Shown: piece by piece, positions 12,550 through 25,274 of the stretch
Layout of the letters: every line of letters begins with the position of its first letter
How positions within the stretch are numbered: position 1 is the stretch's first letter
Assembly (NCBI RefSeq): GCF_016865255.1
Contig: NZ_CP033381.1
Span: forward strand, 3,348,001 to 3,412,000
Length of the DNA: 64,000 bases
Direction: 5' to 3'
Source: Methylomonas sp. LW13
GTDB taxonomy: Bacteria; Pseudomonadota; Gammaproteobacteria; Methylococcales; Methylomonadaceae
Notes under the pieces: generated by a model
What the model saw: the letters and a program-made list of their open reading frames with translations, nothing else
Told to the model about the DNA's origin: nothing
Database searches by the model: none
Position numbers and translations under genes: made by a program

Positions 12550-12611
12550 GTCAGCACCTGTTTGGGAGGATTAAAGATCGCCCAATCATACGGTGTCTGT
12601 TTCTCATGCCT

Positions 12612-12649
12612 GTTCGCGAAAGCTCGATAATTGTCGAGCTTTCGCGAAC
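12612..12649. promoter_or_regulatory. Perfect 16-bp inverted repeat with 6-nt loop
   Basis: GTTCGCGAAAGCTCGA (12612-12627) is repeated exactly in inverse at 12634-12649, separated by TAATTG. It lies about 60 bp upstream of the AcaB-like gene start and about 275 bp before ssb. No T-run follows on the plus side. It may be an operator, a single-strand initiation or transfer site, or a bidirectional terminator. The structure is seen; the function is unknown. Confidence 0.7.
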
Positions 12650-12713
12650 GACTCTTCGAAAAAATCTGCTCCAATGGCATCACAGTTCATGAGGTGTTTT
12701 ATCTCGTCATGAT

Positions 12714-12791
12714 CCGACTTCGGTCGGCGTTCCGTCTTTAGGCGGCGGCGGTGGTTTCTCATCGGCGTGTCAGGTGCGTCAAGCCTGATGT
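12714..12791 (+). ncRNA. Structured leader element, copy A (four predicted hairpins)
   Basis: This is one of three related elements (others at 16256-16330 and 22409-22487). The predicted stems are CCGAC-TTCG-GTCGG, CCGTC-TTTA-GGCGG, CGGTG/CATCG and TCAGG/CCTGA, with conserved linkers CGTTCCG and GCGTCAAG. Stems change in a compensatory way between copies while the linkers stay constant. It lies about 130 nt upstream of the ssb start. It could act as RNA or as single-stranded DNA; a relation to the STAXI motif is possible but untested. Confidence 0.65.
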
Positions 12792-12809
12792 GATTATTGA
12801 TTGTGTTTA

Positions 12810-12860
12810 CCCTGCCGGGCGTATCGATTCCCCGCAGGGATTCGGCGCTCCGGCATACCC
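12810..12860 (+). promoter_or_regulatory. Hairpin leader upstream of ssb
   Basis: GCCGG (12814-12818) can pair with CCGGC (12850-12854) around an inner hairpin closed by TTCCC/GGGA, while CCCTGC (12810-12815) can alternatively pair with GCAGGG (12834-12839). The mutually exclusive pairings resemble an attenuator. This is the least typical of the leader family: it lacks a T-run and lies further from the start codon. Confidence 0.45.
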
Positions 12861-12923
12861 ATCGCCGCGCCGTTGGGTATTGTTATCGTTGAGTCGGGCG
12901 CGGCCGACAGGAGAAATGTCATC

Positions 12924-13355
12924 ATGGCCAATCGCGGCGTGAACAAAGTCATCTTGCTAGGCCGGCTCGGCGCCGATCCGGAGGTTCGCTACATGCCAAA
13001 CAACGGCGGCAAAGTTGTCGCCGTTCGCTTAGCCACCAGCGAAGTCTGGAACGATCCCAAAAACGGCAAACAGGAGCGGACCGAATGGCATCGGGTGGTG
13101 TTTTTCAAAAAACTCGCCGATACCGCCGAGCAGTATTTGCATAAAGGCAGTCAGATCTACATCGAAGGCCGTTTGCGCACCCAGCAATGGGGCCAAGCGA
13201 ATGACAAACGGTACCGTACCGAAATCACCGCCTTTGAATTGCAGATGCTGGATCGCCCTGCCCCATCAACATCTGGAAATGGTTCATCAACATCAAACTC
13301 AGCACCCGAGGACTCTGATTGGGATGACGACTACAGTGATATGCCCAACCATTAA
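12924..13355 (+). CDS. ssb: Single-stranded DNA-binding protein
   Basis: The ATG at 12924, with AGGAG 11 nt upstream, gives 143 residues starting [20 protein letters not shown], the classic SSB OB-fold opening; the frame extends to 12801 without support. The OB domain (about 1-110) contains [18 protein letters not shown] and [11 protein letters not shown]. The C-terminal tail is acidic but ends DMPNH instead of the usual D-I-P-F, so docking of host partners may be altered. It heads the recombination module and would act with the annealase and exonuclease. Confidence 0.95.
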
Positions 13356-13431
13356 ACCGCGGAGCGCCGATTACTGGCGTTCGTTGCTTTAAGTTTTCAT
13401 CACCGATCCTTTTCAGGCTTCGGTATTTCAA

Positions 13432-13480
13432 CCCCAAGGGGAATTCCATTCCCCGGCGGGCAATGGCGTTCCCTTTTTTT
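13432..13480 (+). promoter_or_regulatory. Attenuator-like leader upstream of the bet-like gene
   Basis: GGGAA (13439-13443) pairs with TTCCC (13469-13473), CCATT with AATGG inside, capped by CCCCGGCGGG, and seven T follow (13474-13480): a good intrinsic terminator. CCCCAAGGGG (13432-13441) can form a competing small hairpin using the same G-run. The ribosome binding site GAAGGAG begins about 3 nt after the T-run. Confidence 0.65.
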
Positions 13481-13497
13481 ATTGAAGGAGACTCACC

Positions 13498-14544
13498 ATG
13501 AGCCAAAACAACCGTAATACCTTACCCAAAACCCGTGACCTGCCGATGCCGGCTGTTGTGCAACAAAGTTATGGCCTGTCGGAGCAGTCCTGGAAAGTGC
13601 TGACGGAAGTCACCTTTCCCACCGCGAAATCCCCGGAAGCCATTCTGATGGCGCTGGATTATTGCAAGGCTCGCAAACTCGACATCTTCAAAAAGCCGGT
13701 GCATATCGTGCCGATGTGGAGTGCGGCATTGGGCCGCAATGTCGAGACCGTCTGGCCGTCCATCATGGAAATCCAGACCACCGCGTCCCGAACTGGTGTT
13801 TGGGCTGGCATGGATAGACCCGTATGGGGTCCTGATGTCACCAAAACCTTTACCGGGCGCTACAAGGACGACAACGAGCAATGGCAGGAGTCCAGTGTCA
13901 CCGTGACCTTTCCCGAATGGGTCGCCGTGACCGTGTACCGGATCGTCGGCGGTAAACGCTGCGCCTTTACCGAGGAAGTCTACTGGCTGGAGGCTTATAG
14001 CACGGCCGGCGGTAAAAACTCGCAAGTGCCCACCGCGATGTGGATCAAACGCCCCAAGGGGCAATTGGCCAAATGCGGTAAAGCGGCGTCTTTGCGTACT
14101 GCCTTTCCAGAGGAATGCGGCTATGCCGCCGAGGAAATGGATGGCAAAACGCTTGATGACATCGCCGACGGTAACGTGATCGATGGCAGTGCTACGCTTG
14201 TGCATGCAGCCGAGGTTGGCAGTGAAGATCAGGTTTGTGGGGACGATGATGCAAACCGCGTCATCGATCTGTCGCAAATCCATCCCAAGGTACAAAAAGC
14301 CGTGGCGGAATTAGTTCGTCGCACTACGGCAGCCGGTGCCTGGAAAGCGGCTTACGACTATGCCAATCAGAAGTTCAAAGGCATGGATCTGACGTTTGCC
14401 TTGGCCGAGTTGGATAAGGTATCGGAGGTTGAACCCAGGACCACACGGGCATTGGGTCAAACTGAAGCTACCGTCATGCCGCCATTGACACCGAAGGAGA
14501 TGGCCATGAATCATGCGCGTCAGACTTTGGGTGCCAACCGTTAG
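13498..14544 (+). CDS. bet: Bet/RecT-type single-strand annealing protein
   Basis: This 348-residue protein resembles the lambda Bet group: ALDYCKARKLDIFKKPVHIV and the later region GQLAKCGKAASLRTAFPEE are characteristic. Such proteins anneal complementary single strands in recombination, working with a 5'-3' exonuclease. Here the exonuclease is two genes downstream and SSB just upstream, the same trio found in SXT/R391 and IncA/C elements. The C-terminal third (after about 240) is less conserved. A GAAGGAG site precedes the start. Confidence 0.88.
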   Translation: MSQNNRNTLPKTRDLPMPAVVQQSYGLSEQSWKVLTEVTFPTAKSPEAILMALDYCKARKLDIFKKPVHIVPMWSAALGRNVETVWPSIMEIQTTASRTGVWAGMDRPVWGPDVTKTFTGRYKDDNEQWQESSVTVTFPEWVAVTVYRIVGGKRCAFTEEVYWLEAYSTAGGKNSQVPTAMWIKRPKGQLAKCGKAASLRTAFPEECGYAAEEMDGKTLDDIADGNVIDGSATLVHAAEVGSEDQVCGDDDANRVIDLSQIHPKVQKAVAELVRRTTAAGAWKAAYDYANQKFKGMDLTFALAELDKVSEVEPRTTRALGQTEATVMPPLTPKEMAMNHARQTLGANR

Positions 14545-14654
14545 TCATATCGCTGGACAGGGCTTTTCCGTTGCTTAATCAGGCTATCGGCTAGGACATT
14601 TTCAATCGGGCGTCTGCTGATTTTCAGCATCCGTCACTTCAACCACAACCCATT

Positions 14655-14705
14655 CAGGGCGTCATGACTCGCCCGTGTGGGGATTCATGACGCTCTGGAT
14701 TTTTT
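14655..14705 (+). promoter_or_regulatory. Terminator-like leader upstream of the 14720 gene
   Basis: CAGGGCGTCATGA (14655-14667) pairs with TCATGACGCTCTG (14685-14697), 13 bp with one G-T, and T6 follows (14700-14705). The loop contains CGCCCGTGTGGGG, which can form its own hairpin. The ribosome binding site GGAGAG begins 6 nt later. This is one of the strongest members of the leader family. Confidence 0.7.
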
Positions 14706-14719
14706 AATAAGGAGAGATC

Positions 14720-15055
14720 ATGAATGCAATCGATCAATCATTGAACCGCGTGCCCTGTCATACCGACTGGCAGCGTTACGATTCACCGACGGTAATTCGC
14801 CGGCATGGCCGCGGCTTTTTAGAGCGTAACTTTAAACCGGGCGTAGTCGTGGCAGAGGTCGACAAACCCTCCAAAGCGGAATTACACAATTTGGTGGAAA
14901 GCTTTGGTGGCTTGGTGTTGCCGACCACGGATGCCGTGTTGTTGCTATTTGCCGATTTCCATTGGGCCAAGCGCTGTGAACAGCATTTAACCCAACGCGG
15001 CGTGCCTTCGTTGCGGTTAGGCTGTCACATTCAGTTGCCGGATGCCTGGCAATGA
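14720..15055 (+). CDS. Hypothetical protein between annealase and exonuclease genes
   Basis: I do not recognise this 111-residue protein. It is soluble, with a stretch GRGFLERNFKPGVVVAEVD and a C-terminal LPDAWQ. The start is supported by GGAGAG 4 nt upstream. Its stop overlaps the exonuclease ATG by 4 nt, so it is translationally coupled to it. Its place inside the recombination trio suggests an accessory role in that process, which is inference. Confidence 0.75.
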   Translation: MNAIDQSLNRVPCHTDWQRYDSPTVIRRHGRGFLERNFKPGVVVAEVDKPSKAELHNLVESFGGLVLPTTDAVLLLFADFHWAKRCEQHLTQRGVPSLRLGCHIQLPDAWQ

Positions 15056-16053
15056 ACGTCATCGACGTTTCGCAACGTTCCGCCGCATGGCGGCACTGGC
15101 GTTCACAAGGTGTCAGTGCCAGCGAAGCGGCCGTCATCATGAATCGTTCGCCGTACAAAAGCCCTTGGCGCCTCTGGGCAGAAAAGATCGGCCTGGTTCT
15201 GGAAGCCAGCCTGGACAACAACCCGTTGATCCGCGCCGGCATTCAGCAAGAGCCCGAGGCCTTGCAACGCTTCGAGGACAAACACGAGTTGATGTTGTTA
15301 CCGTTATGCGGCGAGTCGGAACAGTATCCCTTGATGCGAGCTTCGTTCGACGGCTTGTCCGACGCAAATGAGCCCGTCGAAATCAAATGTCCGCATGAGA
15401 CCACGTTCTTGGATGTGCTGTTGAATCGGGAAGTATCAGCGGCCTATCAGTTGTATTGGTGCCAGGTGCAACAGCAGCTGCTGGTCGCTGAAGCCGAGCG
15501 CGGCTTTTTGTTTTTCTACCACCAAGGCCAGGACGTCGAGTTCGAGATTCAGCGCGATGAGACCTTTCTCACCGAGCTGATCGAGTCCGCGATGGCTTTC
15601 TGGTCGGCGGTCAAATCGAAAAAGGAACCGAGCAAGGATCCAGAACGCGATTTGTACTTACCCAAAGGTGATGCAGAGCAGCAATGGCAACAGCTGGCGG
15701 CGAGTTATCGCAATAGTGCCGTAAAAATCGCTGATTTGAAAGCGGAGTTAAAAACCTTGGAGGATAGTCAAGCGGCCATTGAAAACACGTTGGTGTTGCT
15801 GATGGGCGAATACCTGGCCGCGGAGCATTCCGGGTTGCGCATCAGTCGGTTTCAAAGCCAGGGTGCTATCGATTACAAGGCGGCACTCCAGGCCTTGCAA
15901 CCGGATGTTCTGGCATCGGCGCTTGAAGTCTATCGAAAACCGTCTGCCACGCGAGTCCGCGTGACCTGCCGGGACGACGACGGTAAACATGCCGAAGTGC
16001 CGTTCGATGCGCAGGCTTTGAAAGACCTGGTGGACATGGACTTTTGGTTTTGA
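15052..16053 (+). CDS. exo: YqaJ-type (lambda exonuclease-like) recombinase exonuclease
   Basis: The 333-residue protein starts with the YqaJ-type opening (RSAAWRHWRSQGVSASEAAVIM). The PD-(D/E)XK core is visible as SFDGLSD followed by PVEIKCP, with YQLYWCQVQQQLLV as the late glutamine motif. A coiled-coil stretch spans about 225-265. Together with the Bet-like protein and SSB it would resect and anneal DNA ends. The protein ends VDMDFWF, an acidic aromatic tail shared with two other module proteins. The start overlaps the preceding stop (ATGA). Confidence 0.9.
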   Translation: MNVIDVSQRSAAWRHWRSQGVSASEAAVIMNRSPYKSPWRLWAEKIGLVLEASLDNNPLIRAGIQQEPEALQRFEDKHELMLLPLCGESEQYPLMRASFDGLSDANEPVEIKCPHETTFLDVLLNREVSAAYQLYWCQVQQQLLVAEAERGFLFFYHQGQDVEFEIQRDETFLTELIESAMAFWSAVKSKKEPSKDPERDLYLPKGDAEQQWQQLAASYRNSAVKIADLKAELKTLEDSQAAIENTLVLLMGEYLAAEHSGLRISRFQSQGAIDYKAALQALQPDVLASALEVYRKPSATRVRVTCRDDDGKHAEVPFDAQALKDLVDMDFWF

Positions 16054-16074
16054 GTCTTGATGGTTCGTTTCACG

Positions 16075-16103
16075 ACATCCTGTAACCCTGGTGGTTACGG
16101 GAT
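16075..16103 (+). terminator. Hairpin after the exonuclease gene
   Basis: CATCCTGTAACC and GGTTACGGGATG form a 12-bp stem (one mismatch or wobble) around CTGGT about 20 nt after the exonuclease stop. No strong T-run follows, so termination would be weak, or the hairpin may protect the mRNA end. Confidence 0.45.
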
Positions 16104-16255
16104 GTTCATTGATTGACGTCAGCCGGTCAAGACAGTTGACGCCTGACAACGGATCGAATCATTTCGTTATGGCCTGTCGGTTTTAGGCTGGGCTTTTAAA
16201 AAAGTCCAACCCAAAACCCGCATCGTTCAGGTATTCCTTTCATGGAATCCCGAAT

Positions 16256-16330
16256 CCGGTTGCGACCGGCGTTCCGTTGTTAAGCGGCATGAGCGTTTGC
16301 CTCGTGTGCCAGGTGCGTCAAGCCTGGTGT
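16256..16330 (+). ncRNA. Structured leader element, copy B
   Basis: This copy has stems CCGGT-TGCG-ACCGG, CCGTT-GTTA-AGCGG, ATGAG/CTCGT and CCAGG/CCTGG. Against copies A and C, A-T becomes G-C and C-G becomes T-A in the first stem, and T-A becomes C-G in the last; the loop changes from TTCG to TGCG, still a UNCG-type tetraloop. The linkers CGTTCCG and GTGCGTCAAG are unchanged. It lies about 75 nt upstream of the 16403 start. Confidence 0.65.
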
Positions 16331-16340
16331 TTTTGTTTGT

Positions 16341-16382
16341 CCCGTTGGGGTTCATCACCCTTGCGGGATGGTGCCCCCTTTT
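16341..16382 (+). promoter_or_regulatory. Attenuator-like leader upstream of the 16403 gene
   Basis: CCCGTTGGGG forms a small hairpin whose G-run can instead pair with the CCCC at the end of the element, enclosing a CATCACCC/GGGATGGTG stem; TTTT follows. AAGGAGGT, the ribosome binding site, starts 9 nt later. Confidence 0.55.
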
Positions 16383-16402
16383 CACTTTTGAAGGAGGTCA
16401 TT

Positions 16403-16615
16403 ATGAATCACGACTTTTGGAAAACCTTGCATGGCTGGTTGAACGTTGCGCATAGCGACGACATCCAGGCCAAAAAGCGTTTGCTGCTGGAAATGCATCG
16501 TCAAATCTCGGACCCCGGTTTAAGAAGCGACATTCAGCGCATCCTGCGTTTGATGGATCGGGAGCTGTTGGCCCGCGCCGAATGGGCGATGTACTGCGTA
16601 ATGCAGTTACGTTAA
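16403..16615 (+). CDS. Small hypothetical protein of the recombination module
   Basis: The ATG at 16403 follows a near-perfect AAGGAGGT (16391-16398); the frame extends upstream without support. The 70-residue protein is helical (NHDFWKTLHGWLNVAHSDD, then a basic helix) and I do not recognise it. A terminator follows directly. It may be a small regulator or partner of the AAA+ protein encoded next; that is only inferred from position. Confidence 0.7.
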   Translation: MNHDFWKTLHGWLNVAHSDDIQAKKRLLLEMHRQISDPGLRSDIQRILRLMDRELLARAEWAMYCVMQLR

Positions 16616-16623
16616 TTTTTTCT

Positions 16624-16644
16624 CCCCTGGTTTACCAGGGTTTT
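16624..16644 (+). terminator. Intrinsic terminator after the 16403 gene
   Basis: CCCTGG-TTTA-CCAGGG followed by TTTT lies about 10 nt after the stop codon. Confidence 0.65.
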
Positions 16645-16649
16645 AATCA

Positions 16650-16690
16650 CCCGCTGGGGCTCATTACCCCTCGGGGCCGGTGCGCCCCTT
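16650..16690 (+). promoter_or_regulatory. Hairpin leader upstream of the AAA+ gene
   Basis: CCCGCTGGGG (16650-16659) can form a small hairpin, or its GGGGC can pair with GCCCC (16684-16688) around an inner ACCCC/GGGG stem. It lies about 20 nt before the ribosome binding site GAGGAG. Only a short T-containing stretch follows. Confidence 0.5.
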
Positions 16691-16722
16691 GTCATTTGAG
16701 GCTAGTCCTCGAGGAGCTCACC

Positions 16723-17664
16723 ATGTACCAACAATATTCCATTGCTAACACCTTCGGCATTCAGGCCCCGGCTTCCATGAAAGTGGAAGGTTTTAGCCCG
16801 GCCAATAACCCGTATGTGCCGGCTATCAAGCCCTATGTGTTTCGCAAGGATCACTTGCGGGATGTGTTGGCGTTTTTGGGCGCACACAATGGCGATGGTT
16901 TATACCTGACCGGGCCGACCGGTTCCGGCAAAACCTCGTTGTTGGAGCAAGTCGCGGCGCGTCTCAATTGGGGCGTGCATTCGGTCACCGGTCACGGCCG
17001 ACTGGAGCTCAACGATCTGCTCGGTCAGTACATGCTAATCGACGGCGGTGCGATGAAGTGGATCGACGGCCCCTTGACCTTGGCGGTACGTCTGGGCCAT
17101 GTGCTGTTGATTAACGAAATCGATGCAATCGATCCCGCAGAGCTGATTGGCCTGAATGAAATCGTCGAAGGCAAACCGTTGACGATTCCGCAGACCGGCG
17201 ACGTGATTGCCCCGCATTCCAAGTTTCGTTTGGTGGCCACCGGCAATAGTGCCGGCAGTGGCGACCAGTCGGGTTTGTACCAAGGGGTGTTGCGGCAAAA
17301 CCTGGCCTTCCTGGATCGGTTTAGGTTGATGGAAGTCGGTTACCCCGAGCCTGAAGACGAAATGAAGCTGTTGGCCGATGTGGTGCCGACCATGCCGGAA
17401 TCTGTACGGGAAAGCATGATCAAAGTGGCCAATCAGATTCGTAAAGTCTTTATTGGCGGTGCGGATGGCAACGGCATGTTGTCGGTGACCTTATCGACGC
17501 GCGGTTTGGTGCGCTGGGCAACCTTGGTGGCGACCTTCAAAAGTGCCCCAAATGCCCTCGCCTATTCGCTGGATCGTGCCTTGACTTTCCGTGCAGAACC
17601 CGCCGAACGCGAAGCGATTCATCGCATCGCCAAGGATGTGTTCGGTGACGATTGGGCTGTGTAG
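16723..17664 (+). CDS. CobS/MoxR-like AAA+ ATPase
   Basis: The ATG at 16723, preceded by GAGGAG, gives 313 residues. The AAA+ core has Walker A GPTGSGKT (64-71), Walker B LLINEID (about 128-134) and a sensor-like VATGNS. In SXT/IncA/C elements a CobS-like ATPase, a DUF3150 protein and a CobT-like VWA protein sit together as here. MoxR-type ATPases remodel partners together with VWA proteins; real cobalt chelation is unlikely. Its substrate in this module is unknown. It ends GDDWAV, faintly similar to the acidic aromatic tails of its neighbours. Confidence 0.88.
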   Translation: MYQQYSIANTFGIQAPASMKVEGFSPANNPYVPAIKPYVFRKDHLRDVLAFLGAHNGDGLYLTGPTGSGKTSLLEQVAARLNWGVHSVTGHGRLELNDLLGQYMLIDGGAMKWIDGPLTLAVRLGHVLLINEIDAIDPAELIGLNEIVEGKPLTIPQTGDVIAPHSKFRLVATGNSAGSGDQSGLYQGVLRQNLAFLDRFRLMEVGYPEPEDEMKLLADVVPTMPESVRESMIKVANQIRKVFIGGADGNGMLSVTLSTRGLVRWATLVATFKSAPNALAYSLDRALTFRAEPAEREAIHRIAKDVFGDDWAV

Positions 17665-17666
17665 CT

Positions 17667-18428
17667 ATGATAGCCTGGAGTTTATACCGTCATCGTAATA
17701 CAGACGGCAGTTCCAAAGACTGGGCGGTCCGAAGCAATTCGGATGGCAGTATCACCACCCGCTGGGGCAAAACGGCCAATCGATTACCGGGCGTCAGTAA
17801 TCGTTATGGGATTCAGCAACGCGATATCGAACGGCAAAAACAGGCCAAGGGCTATGAATGGGTTGGTTTGGTGGATATTGATGTGAACGGCAACGTACGG
17901 TTTCCGGACACGTCCTCGACGATCGCTCCATCCGTTCCAGAGGCAACCACCATCCCGTCTCCGCCCGTCAGGGTCGACAAGCTGTATTGGCATGTCGATT
18001 GTCGCGCCGGTCAGGCGACCTTGCTCGACATGAGGCTCGCCTTGCGACGTTGGTTGGGCGACCTGGAGGCCTGGTCTCAGGCTCAAGGACTTGCCGTAAG
18101 CGACTGGTCCGGTTGGCAACGGCTGATCGACGCCAGTCTGGGCGAGGAAGCCTTCGATCTCAGCGGTCAAATCCACCTCGAGCACGGGGTGTTGCCTTGG
18201 CTGTGGTTGATGGCCTTGAAGCAGGCCGCCTTTCCTGGCGTCTCGGTCGGAATTGCCACCGAAAGCGGCCGCGACGTGTCGGCAGAGCTGAAAGCCGAAA
18301 CCGAAGTCCTGGCGCTATTCGAGATCGACATCGAGGCCATAAGGCCGTTGGCGGAAAGTTTGGGGCTATTGAAACCCCGACTTGATCTGGCGTTGGCCAT
18401 GGCCGATCAAACCGATCACTGGTTTTGA
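17667..18428 (+). CDS. Unknown protein with WGR-like N-terminus and DxWF tail
   Basis: The ATG at 17667 is 2 nt after the AAA+ stop, implying coupling; the frame opens 15 nt earlier. The first 70 residues (SKDWAVRSNSDGSITTRWGK) resemble a WGR domain, a nucleic-acid or protein-binding module, though this is by eye only. The rest is unrecognised and lacks membrane segments. It ends DQTDHWF, matching the terminal pattern of the exonuclease and DUF3150 proteins. A role as adaptor in the module is inference. Confidence 0.75.
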   Translation: MIAWSLYRHRNTDGSSKDWAVRSNSDGSITTRWGKTANRLPGVSNRYGIQQRDIERQKQAKGYEWVGLVDIDVNGNVRFPDTSSTIAPSVPEATTIPSPPVRVDKLYWHVDCRAGQATLLDMRLALRRWLGDLEAWSQAQGLAVSDWSGWQRLIDASLGEEAFDLSGQIHLEHGVLPWLWLMALKQAAFPGVSVGIATESGRDVSAELKAETEVLALFEIDIEAIRPLAESLGLLKPRLDLALAMADQTDHWF

Positions 18429-18454
18429 TCAGCTGAGGTTCCGACCATTGATTC

Positions 18455-18483
18455 CTGCAGCGAACTGTTCTCTGCAGTTTTTT
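18455..18483 (+). terminator. Terminator-like hairpin after the WGR-like gene
   Basis: CTGCAG (18455-18460) and CTGCAG (18472-18477) pair, followed by six T (18478-18483). Confidence 0.5.
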
Positions 18484-18490
18484 AACACTC

Positions 18491-18531
18491 ACCCGGAAGG
18501 GGCCATTTGCCCCCATGGGGTCAGTGTGCCT
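18491..18531 (+). promoter_or_regulatory. Hairpin leader upstream of the DUF3150 gene
   Basis: CCCGGAAGGGG is followed by GCCCCCATGGGGTC and GTGTGCC; GGC can pair with the final GCC around a CCCC-CAT-GGGG hairpin. The element ends about 7 nt before the ribosome binding site AGGAGG. It has no T-run but matches the family in layout and position. Confidence 0.45.
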
Positions 18532-18550
18532 TCTTCCCTAGGAGGTTCAC

Positions 18551-19759
18551 ATGACACAAACCCAACTCATTTTAGATCAAGTAGTCTTGGTCAAAGTCGA
18601 CGCCACGATTTACGGCGCGCGCAAAAAACTCAACAAAGAAGATCTGGTACTGGCCGACGGTAGCAAGTTGCCGCCGGAGGATTTGGCCAGTTTAGGCTCG
18701 AAGCGCTTGCTCGATCCGGACCGTCTCTCGGTGTTCAACCGCCTGAAAAAGGAAGCCGAACGCATTTGTTTACGCGTCGGCACCCGCTTTCTGGGCGGTT
18801 TCATCGTACCGGTCGCGGCAGCACCACAAGTCACGGTGGAACTGGATCGAATCGCTGGGGATTTTGCTCAGGCACGGGCCGAGTTTTTGGATGGCTACGA
18901 TACTGCGGTACAAGACTGGATGGTCAAACATCCGGAATTCGCCGGCATCATCGAAAAAGCCATTGACTCGGTGGCCTTGGTCGCCACCCGCTTGACCTTT
19001 GATTATCTGGTGGTGTCGGTGGCCTTACCCGAACAGTTGCCAAAAGTGGAGGTCGAACGCCTGGAAAGCAAAATCGGTTCGTTGAGCGAGCAGATGTTCC
19101 ATGAAATTGCGGTGGACGCCAACTTGCTGGTCGAACAATCGTTGCTCGGCAAGGAACAAGTCACCCGCAACGCGCTCAGGCCGATCAAACGCATCCGCGA
19201 CAAACTCGATGGCTTGAGTTTTTTGGATCATCGCGTAGCGCCGGTGGTAACCACCATTGACGACTTGCTCGGCAAAATTCCGACTCGGGGCTCAATCGAA
19301 GGCGGTTTGCTGCAGGAAATTCTCGCCATGGCGATGTTGCTGGCCGATCCGGATAAAACTCGGCGGCACGGAGAAGGATTGTTGGCGGCGCAAGCGCCTA
19401 CACCGGAGCTAGAGACCGATGCTGACGTTGATGTCGAAGAAATCGTCGATCCAACGGAACCCGAGTCATCCGAATTGCCAGCATCACCAACACCCGTCAT
19501 CCCTGTCATTGCAGAGACCGTTTCGAGCGATCCGGATTTTACGGATCTGTTTGATGGCATCTTTGACGATGAGCTCGAAGCAGAATCGTCATCCGATGAC
19601 TGGGCTTTAGAAGTCTTGCTGGATAAACGCCAGTCCGATTTGGTAACCGGTCACGATGCCGATCAAGCCAATGATTTGGAGAACTCAGCGGAACCGGCAA
19701 CGGTGACGGCGGGAGACGATGAGGAGGCGGACGATTCCGACCAGGATTACTGGTTCTGA
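18551..19759 (+). CDS. DUF3150 family protein
   Basis: The 402-residue protein starts after AGGAGG and has the DUF3150 opening (VVLVKVDATIYGARKKL) with a helical core to about residue 275, then a long acidic low-complexity linker (about 280-400). DUF3150 genes accompany CobS/CobT-like genes in ICEs and IncA/C plasmids; their function is unknown. The protein ends SDQDYWF, sharing D-aromatic-W-F with two neighbours. The disordered linker plus terminal motif looks like a tethered docking peptide. Confidence 0.82.
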   Translation: MTQTQLILDQVVLVKVDATIYGARKKLNKEDLVLADGSKLPPEDLASLGSKRLLDPDRLSVFNRLKKEAERICLRVGTRFLGGFIVPVAAAPQVTVELDRIAGDFAQARAEFLDGYDTAVQDWMVKHPEFAGIIEKAIDSVALVATRLTFDYLVVSVALPEQLPKVEVERLESKIGSLSEQMFHEIAVDANLLVEQSLLGKEQVTRNALRPIKRIRDKLDGLSFLDHRVAPVVTTIDDLLGKIPTRGSIEGGLLQEILAMAMLLADPDKTRRHGEGLLAAQAPTPELETDADVDVEEIVDPTEPESSELPASPTPVIPVIAETVSSDPDFTDLFDGIFDDELEAESSSDDWALEVLLDKRQSDLVTGHDADQANDLENSAEPATVTAGDDEEADDSDQDYWF

Positions 19760-19781
19760 TCTGACGCCATTTAACTATTCA

Positions 19782-19834
19782 CCCACTGGGGCAAAGTCAT
19801 GTCCCGCTGGGGCCATGGTTTGCCCCGTATTTTG
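19782..19834 (+). promoter_or_regulatory. Attenuator-like leader upstream of the CobT-like gene
   Basis: GGGGCAAA (19788-19795) pairs perfectly with TTTGCCCC (19819-19826), enclosing a second hairpin CATG-CCC-GCTG-GGG-CATG. CCCACTGGGG at the 5' side can compete for the same G-run. GTATTTT follows, then TTGGAG as ribosome binding site. Confidence 0.65.
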
Positions 19835-19843
19835 GAGCACACC

Positions 19844-21667
19844 ATGAAAAATAGAACCTTACACAACGCATTTCCCATCGTTGCGGCCGCCATTGGCAAT
19901 CGCTTTGGCGTCAAAGTCAGTGTCGGTGGCAATCAGGCTTATACCGATGGGAAATCGATTCAGTTGCCGGCTTATGACGGCGACGATCAGGATTATCAGG
20001 ATATCGCCTGGGGACTGTTAGCCCACGAGGCGGCGCATATTCGCTATTCGGATTTTACGCTTCGCTATGGCAGTTCGGTCTTACGTCGGAGGCTTTGCAA
20101 TGCGATTGAAGATGTCCGAATCGAGTATGAACTGGCCAAAGACTTTCCGGGGACTCGACTGACGATACGCACGGTCATCGAAAAGATGATTGCCAAAGGC
20201 GACTTTGTCGCCAGCCGTATCGACGACCATCCGGCCAATATTCTGTACAGCTATGTCTTGAAAAGCTTGCGTGCCAGGGTATTGGGTCAGTCGGCGTTAC
20301 AGCCGTTGGTCGAGGAAACCGAAATCGCATTGAAGGCAACGTTTCCCATCGGCGCGGTAACGCGACTGAAAGGCTTGCTGTCCGAAGTTCCGGAGAGCTT
20401 GCAATCGGAGAGCGATTGTTTGCAGTTGACCGATCGCATCCTGACCATGATTGAACAGGAGTTCGAACAACAACGGCAACGCAATCAGGCCCAGCCATCG
20501 GCAGATGAGGAAACCACTCCTCCTAAACCGGATGAGACCTATCAGGATGCTGAATCAGCCGAATCAAATGATACGGAAGGCCCGGATTCCGAGGATGACA
20601 CGAAGTCCAATGAACGCTTACCCAACGACACTGATGACGAATCGTCTTCAGAATCCGATGGTAACGATGCATTGAATCCGGCAGATCCTGACAATGAACC
20701 AACAACATACTCCAATAGCGCTTTATACACTCCGCAATGTGATGATGAAGAGACCACGGAGATTCGGGACCCTATCGACGTCTTGAAAACCTTGTTGTCC
20801 GCTGAAGACGGTGACATCGAGCGGGATTTATTCGAATCGCTGAAATCGGCTTTGTCGTTGGCGGCCGAAGACGTATCGGAATTGCTGATGCCGAGCGGCC
20901 ACGAGCCGCCCATGGATGAGCGGGCTGGTGCGTTTTTGCTGCGTAAGGTGCAAAGCGAATCGGGAAAAATCCGCGCCGCGTTGCAAGGCCTGGTGCAATC
21001 GCAAACCCTGAACCGCTCGCAACACGCCTGTCGTGGGCGACGGCTGGATGGTAAGCGTTTGCATCGACTGCCGCTGGGCGAAACCAAGCTGTTTCAACGC
21101 AAGCAGTCCAAGGCGGCACCCAATACGGCCATCCATCTGCTACTCGATAAGTCGGAAAGCATGGGTTATCAAGTCACCGATAGCCAGGGTCAGCCGATAG
21201 GATCGCGAATGCCGATTGCATTGGAAGCCACTTTGGCGCTGGCCTTGGCCTTTGAAGGGATTCCGGGAGTCAATCCTGGCGTCACTGCGTTTCCAGGCCA
21301 TCACGATGATTCGGTTTTTCGTCTGATTGAGCATGGCCAACGTGTGAATGCCAGAACTGGTGCCTTCTCTTTGTCGGCTACCGGCAGTACGCCGATGACC
21401 GAAGCGATTTGGTTTGGTGCGGCGTCACTGCTGCGTTGCCGGGAACCGCGCAAGGTATTGATGGTAATGACCGATGGTCAACCCAATGATACCCTGAGCA
21501 CACTGGAGCTGTTGCAGCGCTGCCGCGATAGCGGTATTGAAACCGTCGGTGTGGGGTTGGGACTGGATGTCAGTCATCTATTCCCGATTGCCATCACCAT
21601 CAACGAACTTCAAGAGCTGAGAGCGCAATTGTTCGAACTCTCGAAATCGTTGTTGTTGGCGGCTTAA
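19844..21667 (+). CDS. CobT-like VWA protein with HExxH motif
   Basis: The ATG at 19844 with TTGGAG 7 nt upstream gives 607 residues; an upstream extension to 19799 overlaps the leader hairpin and is rejected. The N-terminus carries HEAAH (61-65) in LLAHEAAHIRYSDF, a possible zinc site. A highly acidic linker follows (about 205-310), then a VWA domain with the MIDAS motif DKSES (about 433) and TDGQPND. This is the VWA partner of the CobS-like AAA+ ATPase. By analogy with MoxR/VWA pairs it may be a chaperone or remodelling complex acting on recombination proteins. Whether HExxH is active is unknown. Confidence 0.85.
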   Translation: MKNRTLHNAFPIVAAAIGNRFGVKVSVGGNQAYTDGKSIQLPAYDGDDQDYQDIAWGLLAHEAAHIRYSDFTLRYGSSVLRRRLCNAIEDVRIEYELAKDFPGTRLTIRTVIEKMIAKGDFVASRIDDHPANILYSYVLKSLRARVLGQSALQPLVEETEIALKATFPIGAVTRLKGLLSEVPESLQSESDCLQLTDRILTMIEQEFEQQRQRNQAQPSADEETTPPKPDETYQDAESAESNDTEGPDSEDDTKSNERLPNDTDDESSSESDGNDALNPADPDNEPTTYSNSALYTPQCDDEETTEIRDPIDVLKTLLSAEDGDIERDLFESLKSALSLAAEDVSELLMPSGHEPPMDERAGAFLLRKVQSESGKIRAALQGLVQSQTLNRSQHACRGRRLDGKRLHRLPLGETKLFQRKQSKAAPNTAIHLLLDKSESMGYQVTDSQGQPIGSRMPIALEATLALALAFEGIPGVNPGVTAFPGHHDDSVFRLIEHGQRVNARTGAFSLSATGSTPMTEAIWFGAASLLRCREPRKVLMVMTDGQPNDTLSTLELLQRCRDSGIETVGVGLGLDVSHLFPIAITINELQELRAQLFELSKSLLLAA

Positions 21668-21686
21668 ATACTGAAGGAAACCTCGC

Positions 21687-22013
21687 TTACTCGAACAAGG
21701 TCGATAGTCGTGCCAGCACGTCATCCATGATGGCGTCCGGTACGCTATCGACCCATCGAGCTTGGCGAGCCGCCAAATCGAGGATACGCGGTTGGTCGCA
21801 GCGAATCACACCGGTGGTTTTGATTCCCGTCAACGGAACCGCAAATCCCAGGCGCCGCGCGAAATCACCGCCCGTGGTGATCGGTAATACCACCGGCAGT
21901 TTGGTGACCTGATTGAATTCATCCGGGGACACGATGACCACCGGCCGGCTGCCTTTTTGTTCATGGCCTGCGGTCGGATCGAGTGAAACCAAATAGATGT
22001 CGCCGCGCTTCAT
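21687..22013 (-). CDS. MazF/ChpB-like endoribonuclease toxin
   Basis: The 108-residue protein begins MKRGDIYLVSLDPTAGHEQK and contains RPVVIVSPDEFN and PITTGGDFARR, typical of the MazF/PemK fold; such toxins cut mRNA at short motifs. It overlaps its antitoxin by 4 nt (ATGA). It is convergent with the CobT-like gene (20-nt gap). Probable function is stabilisation of the element. Confidence 0.92.
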   Translation of the reverse strand: MKRGDIYLVSLDPTAGHEQKGSRPVVIVSPDEFNQVTKLPVVLPITTGGDFARRLGFAVPLTGIKTTGVIRCDQPRILDLAARQARWVDSVPDAIMDDVLARLSTLFE

Positions 22014-22267
22014 AGCAGTTCGTTACCCACCGCCGGCGTATCGATCCATTCGCGCTCTTCTTCGGACAGTGGTGCGGAATAGTCTGAATTGGCCAGTAAT
22101 TCGGCCAGGGTGTAATGCGGCTTCGGAGATGGCTCTACGACCAAACGGCCGTGATCGATAACCAAGCCTACCGTCGCGCCGGCTTGCAAGTGTAATTGTT
22201 CCAACAATGCCGGAGGCACCGCCAACATGATTGAGCCGCCGACTTTACGTAGATTGGTAGTGTGCAT
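22010..22267 (-). CDS. MazE/ChpS-like AbrB-fold antitoxin
   Basis: The start at 22267 is preceded by GGAG at 7 nt; a frame extension to 22297 has no such site. The 85-residue protein opens with MHTTNLRKVGGSIMLAVPPAL, a swapped-hairpin AbrB DNA-binding domain, and has an acidic tail that would cover the toxin. Autorepression of the pair is expected from the family. Confidence 0.9.
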   Translation of the reverse strand: MHTTNLRKVGGSIMLAVPPALLEQLHLQAGATVGLVIDHGRLVVEPSPKPHYTLAELLANSDYSAPLSEEEREWIDTPAVGNELL

Positions 22268-22330
22268 AGCATCGCTCCGGGGATAATTGTTATACAAAAA
22301 TATAACATAAAATCCCTCTCCACAGGTCGG

Positions 22331-22373
22331 TTTTTCCGATGGCTCGACTTCTCAAGTCCAGCCATCGGAAAAA
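22331..22373. terminator. Long bidirectional terminator-like palindrome
   Basis: TTTTTCCGATGGCT and AGCCATCGGAAAAA form a 14-bp stem, with GACTT-CTC-AAGTC pairing inside. Flanking T and A runs suit termination in both directions. It separates the mazEF-like promoter region from the leader of the 22599 gene. Confidence 0.6.
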
Positions 22374-22408
22374 CAGGCACTTCATGCGTTCTGTCCAGAA
22401 CGCTGAAT

Positions 22409-22487
22409 CCGACTTCGGTCGGCGTTCCGTCTTTAGGCGGCGAGCAAGGTGTTCCCTTGATCGTGTCGGGTACGTCAAGCCCGATGT
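22409..22487 (+). ncRNA. Structured leader element, copy C
   Basis: This copy is identical to copy A over its first 34 nt and then diverges. The third stem is CAAGG-TGTTC-CCTTG, unrelated in sequence to copies A and B but again able to pair. The last stem is TCGGG/CCCGA, with A-T to G-C exchange against copy A. The ACGTCAAG linker is retained. It lies about 110 nt before the 22599 gene. Confidence 0.65.
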
Positions 22488-22521
22488 AAATCGCAGTGGT
22501 GCTACCCACTGAAAATCAAAA

Positions 22522-22575
22522 CCCGCTTCGGGCGACCATCGCCCGGCCGGGCGCTGTTCATTCGAAGTGTTTTCT
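22522..22575 (+). promoter_or_regulatory. Attenuator-like leader upstream of the 22599 gene
   Basis: CGCTTCG (22524-22530) pairs with CGAAGTG (22563-22569), enclosing the perfect CGCCCG-GC-CGGGCG hairpin (22540-22553). TTTTCTT follows, and AAAGGAG precedes the start codon. Confidence 0.6.
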
Positions 22576-22598
22576 TAAATTTTCAAAGGAGAACTTCA

Positions 22599-23132
22599 AT
22601 GAACTTTATTTTCGGCGTCATCCTTTTGGCGATGTTTATCCTTGCCTTGCGAGTCCTTTGGGCAACGGCGTTGCAACTGCTGAGCGCATTGCAACACGCA
22701 GCTCAAACGTTTCACCGCTATCGTGTGCAGCGTTTGGCTCGTAACCGGCTACCGGTAGTCATGCCCCAAATCCGTCATGAGGTGGATTGGTTGGCCATGT
22801 CCGATTCCGTGCGCCAGGAAATTCAGACACGTAATCACGCTGTCAATCGTGAGGCTGTACGACTGGAGGCACAATTACAGGCCAAGTTAAAAACCATCGA
22901 GATCTATGAAGCGAATATTCAAATCGCCAAACTGGAGCGGGAGTTGTTGAAAATCAAACCGGTGATCGACAGTCCAGAGCCTGAAGTCAAAAAAACTCGG
23001 CGCTCGAAAAAGCAGTCGGTTGCCGTCACTGAAACTACAACCCAGAACACGAAACATCCGGTTTCTCAGCTACGGGCTGCATTGAAAGGCAACGATTTAT
23101 CGACGCCGGTCAGTGAGTCTGTCCGCCATTGA
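22599..23132 (+). CDS. Hypothetical single-pass membrane protein with coiled coil
   Basis: I do not recognise this 177-residue protein. An N-terminal membrane helix (about 3-25) is followed by a basic segment, a long coiled-coil-like region (about 75-130) and a lysine-rich tail. AAAGGAG supports the start. It may anchor an element-encoded complex at the membrane. It overlaps the convergent next gene by 23 nt. Confidence 0.7.
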   Translation: MNFIFGVILLAMFILALRVLWATALQLLSALQHAAQTFHRYRVQRLARNRLPVVMPQIRHEVDWLAMSDSVRQEIQTRNHAVNREAVRLEAQLQAKLKTIEIYEANIQIAKLERELLKIKPVIDSPEPEVKKTRRSKKQSVAVTETTTQNTKHPVSQLRAALKGNDLSTPVSESVRH

Positions 23133-23484
23133 ATACCGCAAGCGTCGCGCCGTTTTTTGTCATTACGGTGCGTACTGGCTTAGCCAAGTCAACCTTGGGT
23201 TCGTCGAAGCGAAAGCCATCCGGCAACAGCGATTGGAGATCCTCAAAGGTTTCCCGTCGCAATTGCCGGACATTGCTCAACAACGTCCAGGCTCGCTTCG
23301 GATCGTCGATATTTTGCAACACATCGGCTTCCGCGGCATCCAACTTCGTCAAAATTGTTTTGCAAAGATTTAACGCATTCAGTCTGGGATCGAGTGGTAT
23401 TGCCATCGGTTTTCGTACTGGTTGCGTACTCTCGGTCTGCTTAAGACTGAGGAAATCAAAAATGCGCAAAATATCGTCAAACAT
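23110..23484 (-). CDS. Hypothetical protein
   Basis: This 124-residue soluble protein (start MFDDILRIFDFLSLKQ) is unrecognised. It is convergent with the previous gene. The minus frame is preferred over a plus-strand open frame at 23113-23373 because its composition looks protein-like (acidic helices, PLDPRLNALNL). No strong ribosome binding site is visible, so the call is moderate. Confidence 0.5.
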   Translation of the reverse strand: MFDDILRIFDFLSLKQTESTQPVRKPMAIPLDPRLNALNLCKTILTKLDAAEADVLQNIDDPKRAWTLLSNVRQLRRETFEDLQSLLPDGFRFDEPKVDLAKPVRTVMTKNGATLAVFNGGQTH

Positions 23485-23590
23485 GGCTATTTCTCTGCTA
23501 TTTGATGAGTTTTAGTCACCATATACCGATTTTTGCGCGAATTCAACCCCGCTGTGTGAGCCAGATTTAGGCTTAATTCAGCGTTTTTAA

Positions 23591-23636
23591 CCCTGCAGGA
23601 ACCTCATCCTGTCGGGTGGTCGTTCCTGCATTTTTT
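23591..23636 (+). promoter_or_regulatory. Terminator-like leader upstream of the 23650 gene
   Basis: GCAGGAAC (23595-23602) pairs perfectly with GTTCCTGC (23622-23629) around an inner ACC/GGT-closed hairpin, followed by six T (23631-23636). The ribosome binding site GGAGGAG starts in the very next bases. CCTGCAGG at the 5' side can compete. Confidence 0.7.
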
Positions 23637-23649
23637 GGAGGAGATGACC

Positions 23650-24312
23650 ATGAAAACAATCAACCAACCTAGCGTTGGCACAACCCCTGCCGAAAACAGC
23701 ACGGTTCGGTATCTGAATCAGTACCGGTGTCCCTACTGCCAAACCGAATGGGAGGATGAATGGGATTGCGCCTGTAACGATCGCTGCCCGGACTGCAACA
23801 AGGAAATCGAGCCTTATGAAAGCGCATTGATCGAGGGTGAATCGGCGGAAACCGAGTCCCCAGTCGAAGAACCCGCGTCAGCCAATGTCACGGCGGCGGC
23901 TATGAATCGGTTCTTCGTAGTCTCCTACGAAATCGACTATATGCACCGCGTTTCGGTGGGTATCACTGCGGAGAGTCACGAAGCGGCACAACTGATTGCC
24001 GAGCAGGCATTCAATGACGCCACGATTTGGGATGACACCGCTGCTATGCCGTTATTGTCCGATGAATTTCATGAATCGGAGGGTGAAAGCCTGGTCTGGG
24101 AGTGCGTTGCGGTTGAACAATGGCCAGACCCGGATCATTCGGTACGGCAATTGAAGCAGGAACAAGCAGCCATGCGGGTTTGCCGGGGATTGGTCGAAGC
24201 CTATCAACAAGGTGAAGCCAGTGGCGGCAGTATCGATTGGGACGACTTGGATCCATTAATCCCTCTGGCCTTACAAGCCTTGGGGAAACCTGCATTGGAA
24301 ATTCAATCCTAA
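23650..24312 (+). CDS. Zinc-ribbon-containing hypothetical protein
   Basis: The ATG at 23650 sits 6 nt after GGAGGAG; ATGs at 23635 and 23644 overlap that site. The 220-residue protein has a CPYC...CACNDRCPDC zinc ribbon at about 30-53, an acidic linker, and a domain of about 70 residues (FFVVSYEIDYMHRVSVGITA) that I do not recognise. Similar proteins occur in ICEs as conserved hypotheticals. Nucleic-acid or protein binding through the ribbon is a guess. Confidence 0.72.
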   Translation: MKTINQPSVGTTPAENSTVRYLNQYRCPYCQTEWEDEWDCACNDRCPDCNKEIEPYESALIEGESAETESPVEEPASANVTAAAMNRFFVVSYEIDYMHRVSVGITAESHEAAQLIAEQAFNDATIWDDTAAMPLLSDEFHESEGESLVWECVAVEQWPDPDHSVRQLKQEQAAMRVCRGLVEAYQQGEASGGSIDWDDLDPLIPLALQALGKPALEIQS

Positions 24313-24392
24313 AACTTCGCGCGGTCTTTAAGCGCGCAATTTGCAAAAGCCCGAGGTAGCCACGTCATTTGATTTGGCACTCATTTTTTCCA

Positions 24393-24445
24393 CCCACACG
24401 GGAATGTCCTATTCCCGCTGGGGAATCGTGATGTTTCCGTTTTTT
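24393..24445 (+). promoter_or_regulatory. Attenuator-like leader upstream of the 24462 gene
   Basis: CGGGAA (24399-24404) pairs with TTTCCG (24434-24439) and encloses ATTCCC-GCTG-GGGAAT (24411-24426). Six T follow. CCCACACGGG at the 5' side offers the competing hairpin. TTGAGGA before the ATG is the ribosome binding site. Confidence 0.65.
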
Positions 24446-24461
24446 CCTTGAGGACAACATC

Positions 24462-24959
24462 ATGAAACAAATCTTTGAACACACCTTCGGCACGGGGCAT
24501 TGCATCCAATATCAGCGTTTGCCGTCGGGCACCTGTTATCACGCCGATACACCGGAACCGGTGGTCGAGTTGCTGGAACAGCTTCGCCATAGCCGACGCA
24601 AAATCAGGTTGTATTACGGCGACACCCAAACAGGTCAGTCCTGGCTCGATGAGAATGATGTCATCGGCTGGATCGGCCGCTCGACCGGCACGATTAAAGT
24701 GCCACTTTTGATCGAACCGGGTGACATCGGTGGTCCGGCATTGCTGGATCATTGCATCGTCCGTATCGACAGCCCACGCCAAGTGCTTTACCAACACGAT
24801 GAATTTCGTGTTGGAGAGGTGGAACTGGTCAGAGGTGAGCTTAACCGCTTGCCTTGGGAAATCTGGATCGACGGAGCCGTGCATGCCCGGTTCAAGGGGA
24901 AAATCGAAGCCCGGCAGTATCAGGACTTCATAGAAGGCAAACGATTTGCGTTGATCTGA
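24462..24959 (+). CDS. Hypothetical protein of the integrative element
   Basis: This 165-residue soluble protein is unrecognised. It is rich in beta-type segments (KIRLYYGDTQTGQSWLDEND, then GDIGGPALLDHCIVRID) and ends with a basic region and KRFALI. Proteins of this style are common as conserved hypotheticals in ICE backbones, but I cannot name the family. A terminator follows. Confidence 0.72.
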   Translation: MKQIFEHTFGTGHCIQYQRLPSGTCYHADTPEPVVELLEQLRHSRRKIRLYYGDTQTGQSWLDENDVIGWIGRSTGTIKVPLLIEPGDIGGPALLDHCIVRIDSPRQVLYQHDEFRVGEVELVRGELNRLPWEIWIDGAVHARFKGKIEARQYQDFIEGKRFALI

Positions 24960-24981
24960 CGCGTCGTTTTCACTTTTGACG

Positions 24982-25002
24982 CTCGGTTAAGCCGAGTTTT
25001 TT
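24982..25002 (+). terminator. Intrinsic terminator after the 24462 gene
   Basis: CTCGG-TTAAG-CCGAG followed by six T, about 25 nt after the stop codon. Confidence 0.75.
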
Positions 25003-25008
25003 CAAGAT

Positions 25009-25058
25009 CCCCTGCGGGATGATTCAATCCCGCTGGGATTGAATCGGTCGCGAGGGGG
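25009..25058 (+). promoter_or_regulatory. Orphan hairpin leader
   Basis: An 11-bp perfect hairpin (GATTCAATCCC-GCT-GGGATTGAATC, 25021-25045) is enclosed by CCCC/GGGG outer arms. It matches the other leaders, but the downstream reading frame stops after 17 codons. Confidence 0.6.
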
Positions 25059-25073
25059 TCTTTGGAGTACACC

Positions 25074-25127
25074 ATGACAGACCCATTTCAACATTACCCC
25101 GTATCCTCTGCAGTCCACGCCAGATAA
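25074..25127 (+). pseudogene. Truncated reading frame behind an orphan leader
   Basis: TTTGGAG and an ATG follow the leader as for its intact relatives, but the frame ends after MTDPFQHYPVSSAVHAR. The most likely reading is the 5' remnant of a lost module gene, possibly removed when the Fic-integrase segment joined. A genuine short leader peptide is the alternative. Confidence 0.4.
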
Positions 25128-25242
25128 GGCGGTAACACTGGTAATACCAGAAATCTCACTTCACTATAACTTCAACAGTTACAGCGCTCGGGTTTGCTCA
25201 GAGTGGCACTACAGTCTTTAGTGATGTTTAAACAGGTCTTTT

Positions 25243-25274
25243 ATAGATCATAAAGTGCTATATTTGTGATCTAT
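25243..25274. promoter_or_regulatory. Inverted repeat, probable operator of the Fic gene
   Basis: ATAGATCATAAA (25243-25254) and TTTGTGATCTAT (25263-25274) are inverted copies (11 of 12 match) with an 8-bp spacer, 20 bp before the Fic start. The surrounding bases are AT-rich and could include the promoter. Confidence 0.6.

Follow-up and report, generated by a model that had tools for sequence, protein, structure and literature searches.

Chained Competing Hairpins in the Gene Leaders of a Methylomonas sp. LW13 Module and of Related Conjugative Elements: Candidate Default-Off Translational Attenuators

Introduction

The DNA considered here is a stretch of 64,000 nucleotides (nt) of Methylomonas sp. 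LW13 (genome positions 3,348,001–3,412,000; hereafter, the window), which carries a 12-kb module of genes beginning with ssb and recT, and the subject of this work is the short leaders that precede nearly every gene of this module. The AAA gene of the module encodes a CbbQ/CobS-like (CbbQ-type) ATPase and its VWA gene a CobT-like protein. Three paralogous copies of the module are found elsewhere in the genome (four in total). Relatives of the AAA gene occur at 27 named loci of Methylomonas, Methylobacter, other Methylococcales and unclassified Gammaproteobacteria, and more distant ones on IncC, Vibrio, Methylomonas and Citrobacter plasmids, all of which have MOBH relaxases. IncC plasmids, together with the integrative elements related to them, play an important part in carrying antibiotic resistance.

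The original prediction for this DNA had described eleven gene starts preceded by a small hairpin overlapping a larger one, often with T-runs, and had proposed that transcription runs through serial terminators, controlled by antitermination or by the choice of the competing hairpin. Here, we describe the element that recurs in these leaders, the pairings that compete within it and its occurrence in other genomes and plasmids, and we discuss how such leaders might regulate the genes that follow them.

A Recurrent Element in Front of the Module Genes

The core of the leaders can be written as the pattern ACCC-N4-GGG-N(7–16)-CCC-N4-GGG, which has 28 matches in the 5.23-Mb genome (on both strands, palindromic sites being counted twice), every one of them within the four module copies, and none when the pattern is reversed. 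Seven matches lie in the window against 0.02 expected, six on the gene strand and one being the reverse reading of a palindrome, and looser forms can be recognized by eye upstream of the starts at 14720, 16403, 22599, 23650 and 25074. When the four copies are aligned, a strict or looser element precedes nearly each gene start, save where a gene overlaps its predecessor or lies right against it. An element does recur before the eleven starts that had been singled out, with the reservation that the leaders of ssb (12924) and of an orphan start (25074) are atypical; two of the four copies conserve the ssb leader poorly. The starts at 15052 and 17667 do lack the element, as had been noted, the former gene overlapping its neighbour and the latter being separated from it by a gap of 2 nt.

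Beyond this genome, the strict pattern is matched in 72 of the 201 genomes of a family-level sample, often in clusters. In a class-level sample a longer pattern ending in GGAG is matched in 74 of 323 genomes; many of these matches are single and chance-like, and the reversed control also matches in some genomes. There are also clear clusters at this level, such as one of nine matches in 7.5 kb in genome G305. In G305, genes with such leaders include those of a helicase-like protein and of a RadC-like protein (slightly below the curated cut-offs), and in genome G503 such a leader precedes the gene of a replication protein of the STY4534 family of integrative and conjugative elements. At least 120 stretches of viral contigs were matched as well, mostly once per stretch among the 80 listed, and we read these as chance.

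Two sets of leaders were derived from these searches. At the family level, 35 of 121 matches were dropped as having within reach no start codon with a Shine–Dalgarno (SD) sequence and an open reading frame (ORF) of 30 codons. Reverse readings of palindromes make up most of these, and the real leaders lost by this filter include that of ssb in the window, L035:8132 and some others. The class-level set kept only the 49 matches that had a start.

Architecture of the Leaders and Hairpin C

From 5′ to 3′, the leaders consist of C1 (ACCC), N4, G1 (GGG), a segment x, C2 (CCC), N4, G2 (GGG), a short linker, a segment x′C3, an often T-rich spacer, the SD sequence and the start codon, with a distance of 30–54 nt from G2 to the start in the first 86 leaders (search reach, about 80 nt). 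The N4 positions of the two blocks covary with each other: in 49 held-out motifs, at most 1 of 1000 shuffles scored as high for the position pairs 1:4, 2:3 and 4:1, and 7 of 1000 for 3:2, while in 78 family-level motifs the pair 4:1 was reached by none of 1000 shuffles and 1:4 by 16, the other two pairs being not significant (63 and 206). C1-N4-G1 and C2-N4-G2 are the two arms of one nested hairpin, which we call C. The small CCC-NNNN-GGG hairpin originally described is thus not a hairpin on its own, since the covariation between blocks makes each block one arm of C. The larger hairpin overlapping it is real, and corresponds to the pairing of G1x with x′C3 (state B); what had been missed is a third, competing pairing, that of x′C3 with the SD sequence and start region (state D).

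The loop and the N4 positions are variable and the ACCC, GGG, CCC and GGG blocks and the SD sequence are conserved, although these conserved parts are also the pattern by which the leaders were selected. In a MAFFT alignment of 68 of the 72 reference leaders, RNAalifold recovered just 7 pairs of C, as the variable loop shifts D out of alignment. No conserved aptamer sequence, as would be expected of a metabolite riboswitch, was found in the aligned leaders, in which loops and N4 vary. A pseudoknot between x and x′ atop hairpin C was also considered and dropped, on the reasoning alone that the linker following G2 would not be long enough to bridge the stem of C. Nor are the leaders generally coupled to the stop codon of the preceding gene: an upstream ORF stops within 160 nt in 114 of 135 leaders, at a median distance of 35.5 nt, and within 3 nt in only three of the 135.

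Gene-Specific Complementarity of Neighbouring Segments

Gene by gene, x′C3 is complementary both to G1x and to the SD/start region. Complementarity was measured as the duplex energy of the segments of each leader compared with that of segments swapped between leaders (permutation z), in 76 family-level leaders and in 48 class-level leaders, the latter fetched after the hypothesis had been formed. The z values are −14.7 (family) and −10.2 (class) for G1x with x′C3, and −14.5 and −10.4 for x′C3 with the SD/start region, whereas the negative controls gave −1.7 and 0.0 (G1x with the SD region) and +1.2 and +0.7 (x′C3 with C2N4G2). When the GGG is left out, the pairing of x with x′C3 still has a z of −10.1 and −8.0, and G1x directly resembles the SD region (z = 6.9 and 3.9). 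Another 37 leaders, taken from an IncC plasmid and from the plasmids pVAS114 and pLM6 and picked by folding and not by sequence pattern, form a third set, in which the z for G1x with x′C3 is −9.6.

The leaders of the VWA gene could be aligned across 27 orthologues. In this alignment 84.5% of the cells pair in D (at most 43.9% in slid registers) and 91.2% in B (slid, at most 67.6%), and the covariation score of neither pairing was reached by any of 500 shuffles; for D, this score is 0.233 against at most 0.082 in slid registers.

Predicted Folds of Complete and Growing Leaders

In the minimum-energy fold of the full leader, C and D are formed together in 70 of 85 family-level and 42 of 48 class-level leaders. 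Keeping the SD sequence open has a median cost of 7.6 (family) and 8.5 (class) kcal/mol, and the best fold that satisfies this constraint is B in 76/85 and 34/48 leaders, respectively. Growing prefixes of the leaders, folded at equilibrium with no kinetic simulation, change their ground state from C (after G2) to B (before the SD sequence) and finally to C + D (after the start codon) in 66/85 and 30/48 cases, B being the ground state before the SD sequence is made in 76/85 and 34/48. The same succession was found, as means of eight repeats, in 21.1 family-level and 8.9 class-level leaders when heads were swapped, in 36.6 and 18.0 when tails were swapped, and in 5.5 and 1.6 when the middle was shuffled.

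Similar Leaders in Other Conjugative Elements

Similar leaders are present on an IncC plasmid and on two other MOBH plasmids. In the IncC plasmid pIMP-PH114, a two-hairpin folding test found them at 28 of the 47 coding sequences (CDS) tested between 50 and 100 kb, compared with 40 of 235 shuffles, while the parts of the plasmid outside this region gave 8/58 (shuffles, 43/290) and 4/22 (7/110). Entries for insertion sequences, transposons, integrons and resistance regions were left out of this test; it took in 63 of 69, 50 of 53 and 25 of 60 feature rows, of which 58, 47 and 22, respectively, were tested. The leaders are dense at 69–96 kb, where they precede cobS-like, ssb, bet, exo, DUF3150, VWA and other genes. 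In pVAS114 they were found at 9 of 18 CDS (9/90 shuffles) and in pLM6, where 24 of 31 were tested, at 11 (28/120 shuffles). Leader presence was also tallied by the gap to the upstream gene: with less than 20 nt the test was positive for three of eight genes, all three looking spurious; no genes fell between 20 and 45 nt; and with 45 nt or more leaders were found at 34 of 56.

On the IncC plasmid (L082), the cobS-like and DUF3150 leaders (before 8992 and 13827) share about 80 identical upstream bases and diverge just before the SD sequence, as if leaders had been exchanged or duplicated. The leaders of pTEM-2452 (L085) are AT-rich and without hairpins.

Proposed Mechanism and Its Alternatives

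We consider it probable that these leaders are cis-acting attenuators of translation that are off by default, in which C and D make up the off fold and B frees the SD sequence. Four chained segments would take part: (1) C2-N4-G2, (2) C1-N4-G1-x, (3) x′C3 and (4) the SD sequence with the start region. In the complete mRNA, the pairings 1:2 (C) and 3:4 (D) would form, leaving the SD sequence buried and translation low; formation of 2:3 (B) would leave it free, because G1x would act as a decoy of the SD region for x′C3. With a predicted ground state of C first, B next and C + D last, B would be favoured between the emergence of x′C3 and that of the SD sequence, and, in most leaders, also whenever the SD sequence is held open. 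B would then be the translated state, and the leaders would silence their genes until something favours it, be it a ribosome that catches the nascent RNA co-transcriptionally, a factor of the element or of the host, or an RNA acting in trans. For genes that overlap or directly adjoin their neighbour, translational coupling probably makes a leader unnecessary. The idea that competing hairpins precede almost every gene not overlapping or abutting its neighbour, and that the choice between them is the likely regulatory principle, is retained in this proposal, as is the remark that there is little room for promoters: a scan of 12500–25400 gives 3 promoter-like sites against 8.8 expected.

Several observations weigh against this proposal. 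The predicted probability that the SD sequence is unpaired is just modestly lower in the leaders (medians 0.23 at family and 0.20 at class level) than with shuffled upstream sequence (0.33), and it falls below 0.2 in 32/85 and 19/48 leaders compared with 101/402 shuffles. Both pattern-derived sets were picked by the strict pattern and a start with an SD sequence, which favours the detection of C, and the held-out class set is not wholly independent, a few of its leaders being close homologues of family-level ones (L238, L050). In the third set, the control pairing of G1x with the SD region is also low (z = −2.9) and three or four rows look doubtful, whereas the z of −12.5 for x′C3 with the SD region is not independent evidence, because SD pairing was a selection criterion. 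In the VWA alignment, the covariation score of B (0.222) is near that of its +1 slide (0.193), two of five measures for D are not extreme (39 and 62 of 500 shuffles), and the covariation of hairpin C is unsupported, 415 of 500 shuffles reaching its score. The plasmid pTEM-2452, which has a MOBH relaxase and homologous genes, is without such leaders, the folding test being at about background level (3/21 versus 9/105 shuffles). Finally, in the window itself, the recT and 111-amino-acid (aa) gene leaders prefer B, and in longer sequence their SD sequences pair only far upstream, while the ssb and orphan leaders are without a local D hairpin.

An alternative, close to the original prediction, is that the leaders are serial attenuators of transcription, with B as an intrinsic terminator, C as an antiterminator and a factor encoded by the element permitting read-through. 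In favour of this view, state B has a median of 11 (family) and 10 (class) pairs, is the ground state before the SD sequence is made in the majority of leaders and is directly followed by 7 T in the recT leader, and terminator-like sites are in mild excess in 12500–25400 (26 versus a shuffle mean of 17.0, standard deviation 4.4). However, a terminator-type T-run follows B in only 37/85 family-level and 13/48 class-level leaders, so that the T-runs, which do come after some leaders, are missing after most; the IncC leaders inspected by eye mostly show none. The pairing of x′C3 with the SD region, which is gene-specific and more general than the T-runs, would be left unexplained, and the attenuator upstream of bet in SXT is reported as translational in a review (PMC4542580). 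As for the antiterminator encoded by the element, the genome has a single gene of the NusG family, outside the elements, and no specialised NusG paralogue of the RfaH/LoaP type was found; this search was partial and antiterminators of other kinds may remain. We regard serial terminators as rather unlikely to be the main mechanism, and suggest instead that strong T-runs would add attenuation of transcription to that of translation in a subset of leaders, as may be the case for those with long T-runs such as that of recT.

Stable hairpins at many gene boundaries, as in the long co-directional gene run of IncC, could also shield the pieces of a processed long transcript at their 5′ ends, a role in mRNA stability or processing that would not require x′C3 to be complementary to G1x and the SD region alike and that we find quite improbable. 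A function as single-stranded DNA (ssDNA) structures in conjugation or replication, as proposed for the STAXI motif, would suit a module of ssDNA-related genes (ssb, recT, exonuclease) with relatives on MOBH plasmids; yet the placement 30–54 nt before start codons and the pairing with the SD sequence point to mRNA, and G-U pairs are present, and we hold this function to be very improbable. Most improbable of all appears to be an operator role in double-stranded DNA, in which the tandem CCC-N4-GGG palindromes would bind a dimeric transcription factor: two dyad-symmetric blocks are indeed there in the strict-pattern leaders, but their spacing is variable within the allowed range, their N4 positions covary between blocks as hairpin arms do (held-out set), and the sequences of x, x′ and the SD flank differ from gene to gene with their complementarity kept.

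Starting again from translational attenuation, a wider proposal, which we put forward tentatively and judge possible rather than probable, is that of an element-wide lock: in several kinds of conjugative elements many per-gene switches of like logic, though unlike in most of their sequence, would pass through C, B and C + D. Translation would take place chiefly on nascent RNA, when a ribosome catches the SD sequence while B is the ground state, and the switches would all be opened at once by a shared signal. If a large gene block did share one such lock at the RNA level, this would explain transcription with little translation, and would yield a regulon that can be found by its structure. The 76 and 48 leaders of the two sets represent natural variation on a single bistable RNA design, in which co-transcriptional folding and the competition between the ribosome and the anti-SD segment can be tested in vivo.

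With regard to factors in trans, none of the NusG, ProQ and CsrA genes of the genome is inside the module copies; the one ProQ gene is at 3088823, far from them. No RNA-binding domain was detected by Pfam in nine hypothetical proteins of the IncC leader region, one of which has a match to a DNA methylase family. The only CsrA gene of the genome, at 1398161, is about 8 kb from the module copy at 1406–1418 kb, the outer limits of which were not determined.

Relation to Known RNA Elements

For SXT, an attenuator of translation has been reported upstream of bet (Garriss et al., 2013, as cited in the review PMC4542580), and is said there to lower the translation of an abundant transcript. The bet attenuator of SXT/R391 and IncA/C elements is like the leaders described here in gene family, position and reported effect, but the review names one gene, whereas here each element has a large number of such leaders, several kinds of conjugative elements are involved and there is the additional decoy pairing B. 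The bet leader of IncC folds into C + D; the recT leader of the window is its positional counterpart, but has B as its predicted ground state. In the open-access literature searched, this one example, SXT bet, was found to have been described before; no description of the leaders as a multi-gene class with many members per element, or of the decoy pairing B, was found there.

In trp-type attenuators the pairings 1:2, 2:3 and 3:4 are chained. The leaders likewise have four segments in which neighbouring pairings are mutually exclusive; their last segment is the SD region, and the arrangement is repeated before many genes of one element. The nascent conformations of hok-type metastable mRNAs, like those predicted for the leaders, are distinct from the final one, and the ribosome binding site is masked; unlike these mRNAs, the leaders show no toxin gene or antisense RNA and repeat the switch for each gene. 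The STAXI RNA motif (RF01728) is described as lying near ssb, topoisomerase and integrase genes and as a pseudoknot repeated two or three times (PMC2864571). It shares with the leaders the vicinity of such genes and the repetition of small structures, but the structure so described is a pseudoknot repeat and not a per-gene leader, and its covariance model scored at most 13 bits in the genome, against a threshold of 40.5 bits, and at places other than the leaders. An Rfam scan of the window at gathering thresholds gave four tRNAs only, and permissive scans of the module and three plasmid loci gave only matches far below threshold.

Leaders, Neighbouring Genes and a Second Motif in the Window

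The coordinates of the module, its leaders and a second structured motif, R2, are collected in Table 1.

TABLE 1. Module, leaders and R2 copies in the window.
Feature	Position	Strand	Description
Module	12924..24959	+	ssb, recT, 111-aa gene, YqaJ exonuclease, 70-aa gene, AAA ATPase, 253-aa gene, DUF3150, VWA, 177-, 220- and 165-aa genes
R2 copy 1	12709..12792	+	Upstream of ssb leader
ssb leader (divergent)	12809..12923	+	Strict motif 12809–12839, then 84 nt to start; SD predicted without local hairpin
recT leader	13431..13497	+	Motif 13431–13460, x′C3, 7-T run, SD; predicted ground state B, terminator-like
111-aa gene leader	14648..14719	+	Looser motif; 72-nt leader predicted as B with T-run
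R2 copy 2	16248..16331	+	Upstream of 70-aa gene leader
70-aa gene leader	16340..16402	+	Hairpin C and hairpin hiding SD
AAA (CbbQ/CobS-like) gene leader	16649..16722	+	Strict motif; C, then B, then C + D; fold energy z 0.2, not below shuffles
DUF3150 gene leader	18491..18550	+	Strict motif; C, then B, then C + D
VWA/CobT-like gene leader	19781..19843	+	Strict motif; D and B backed by covariation in 27 orthologous leaders
R2 copy 3	22405..22488	+	Upstream of 177-aa gene leader
177-aa gene leader	22521..22598	+	Four-copy alignment, fold
220-aa gene leader	23590..23649	+	Four-copy alignment, fold
165-aa gene leader	24392..24461	+	Strict motif; C, then B, then C + D
Orphan leader (atypical)	25008..25073	+	Gene (DUF4942-type in a paralogue) gone from window copy

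In the predicted folds, the SD sequence is paired with the local x′C3 at seven of the eleven starts (16403, 16723, 18551, 19844, 22599, 23650 and 24462). The fold-energy z of the eleven leaders ranges from +0.2 (AAA) and −0.1 (ssb) down to −6.3 (orphan). The two-hairpin folding test, applied to 12 of the 15 ORFs entered for the window, was positive for 8 of the 12, one of them a minus-strand ORF, compared with 13 of 60 shuffles. The folding evidence from the window taken alone is modest, and its strength comes from the paralogues and relatives.

The orphan start at 25074 opens only a short gene remnant (25074–25127), while the equivalent ORF has 587 aa in two of the other three copies and 572 aa in the third, where the stretch ends within it, and matches DUF4942 in the one paralogue scanned. 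The orphan leader has outlived its gene, which is gone from the window copy. In the window it is followed by a gene that looks, by its motif, Fic-like and by an integrase gene. A toxin–antitoxin pair of the MazE/PemK type is found on the minus strand (21687–22297) within the module, between the VWA and 177-aa genes, and a gene for a protein with NYN and OST-HTH/LOTUS domains (9428–10762) lies a short way upstream of the module.

R2 is an 84-nt motif of four tandem hairpins, located upstream of the ssb, 70-aa and 177-aa gene leaders. Its loop pattern GGTRCGTYAAGCC is matched 12 times in the genome, three per module copy, and the reversed control twice. No Rfam match was obtained in the scans that covered R2. 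Compensatory changes were found in 13 of 28 predicted pairs among 21 aligned sequences, from which four matches without GGCGT and near-identical ones had been dropped; as the alignment required the loop pattern and GGCGT, the conservation of these parts is in part due to selection. As a matter of speculation, R2 may be a sign of where transcription units begin, or may have an effect on the polymerase.

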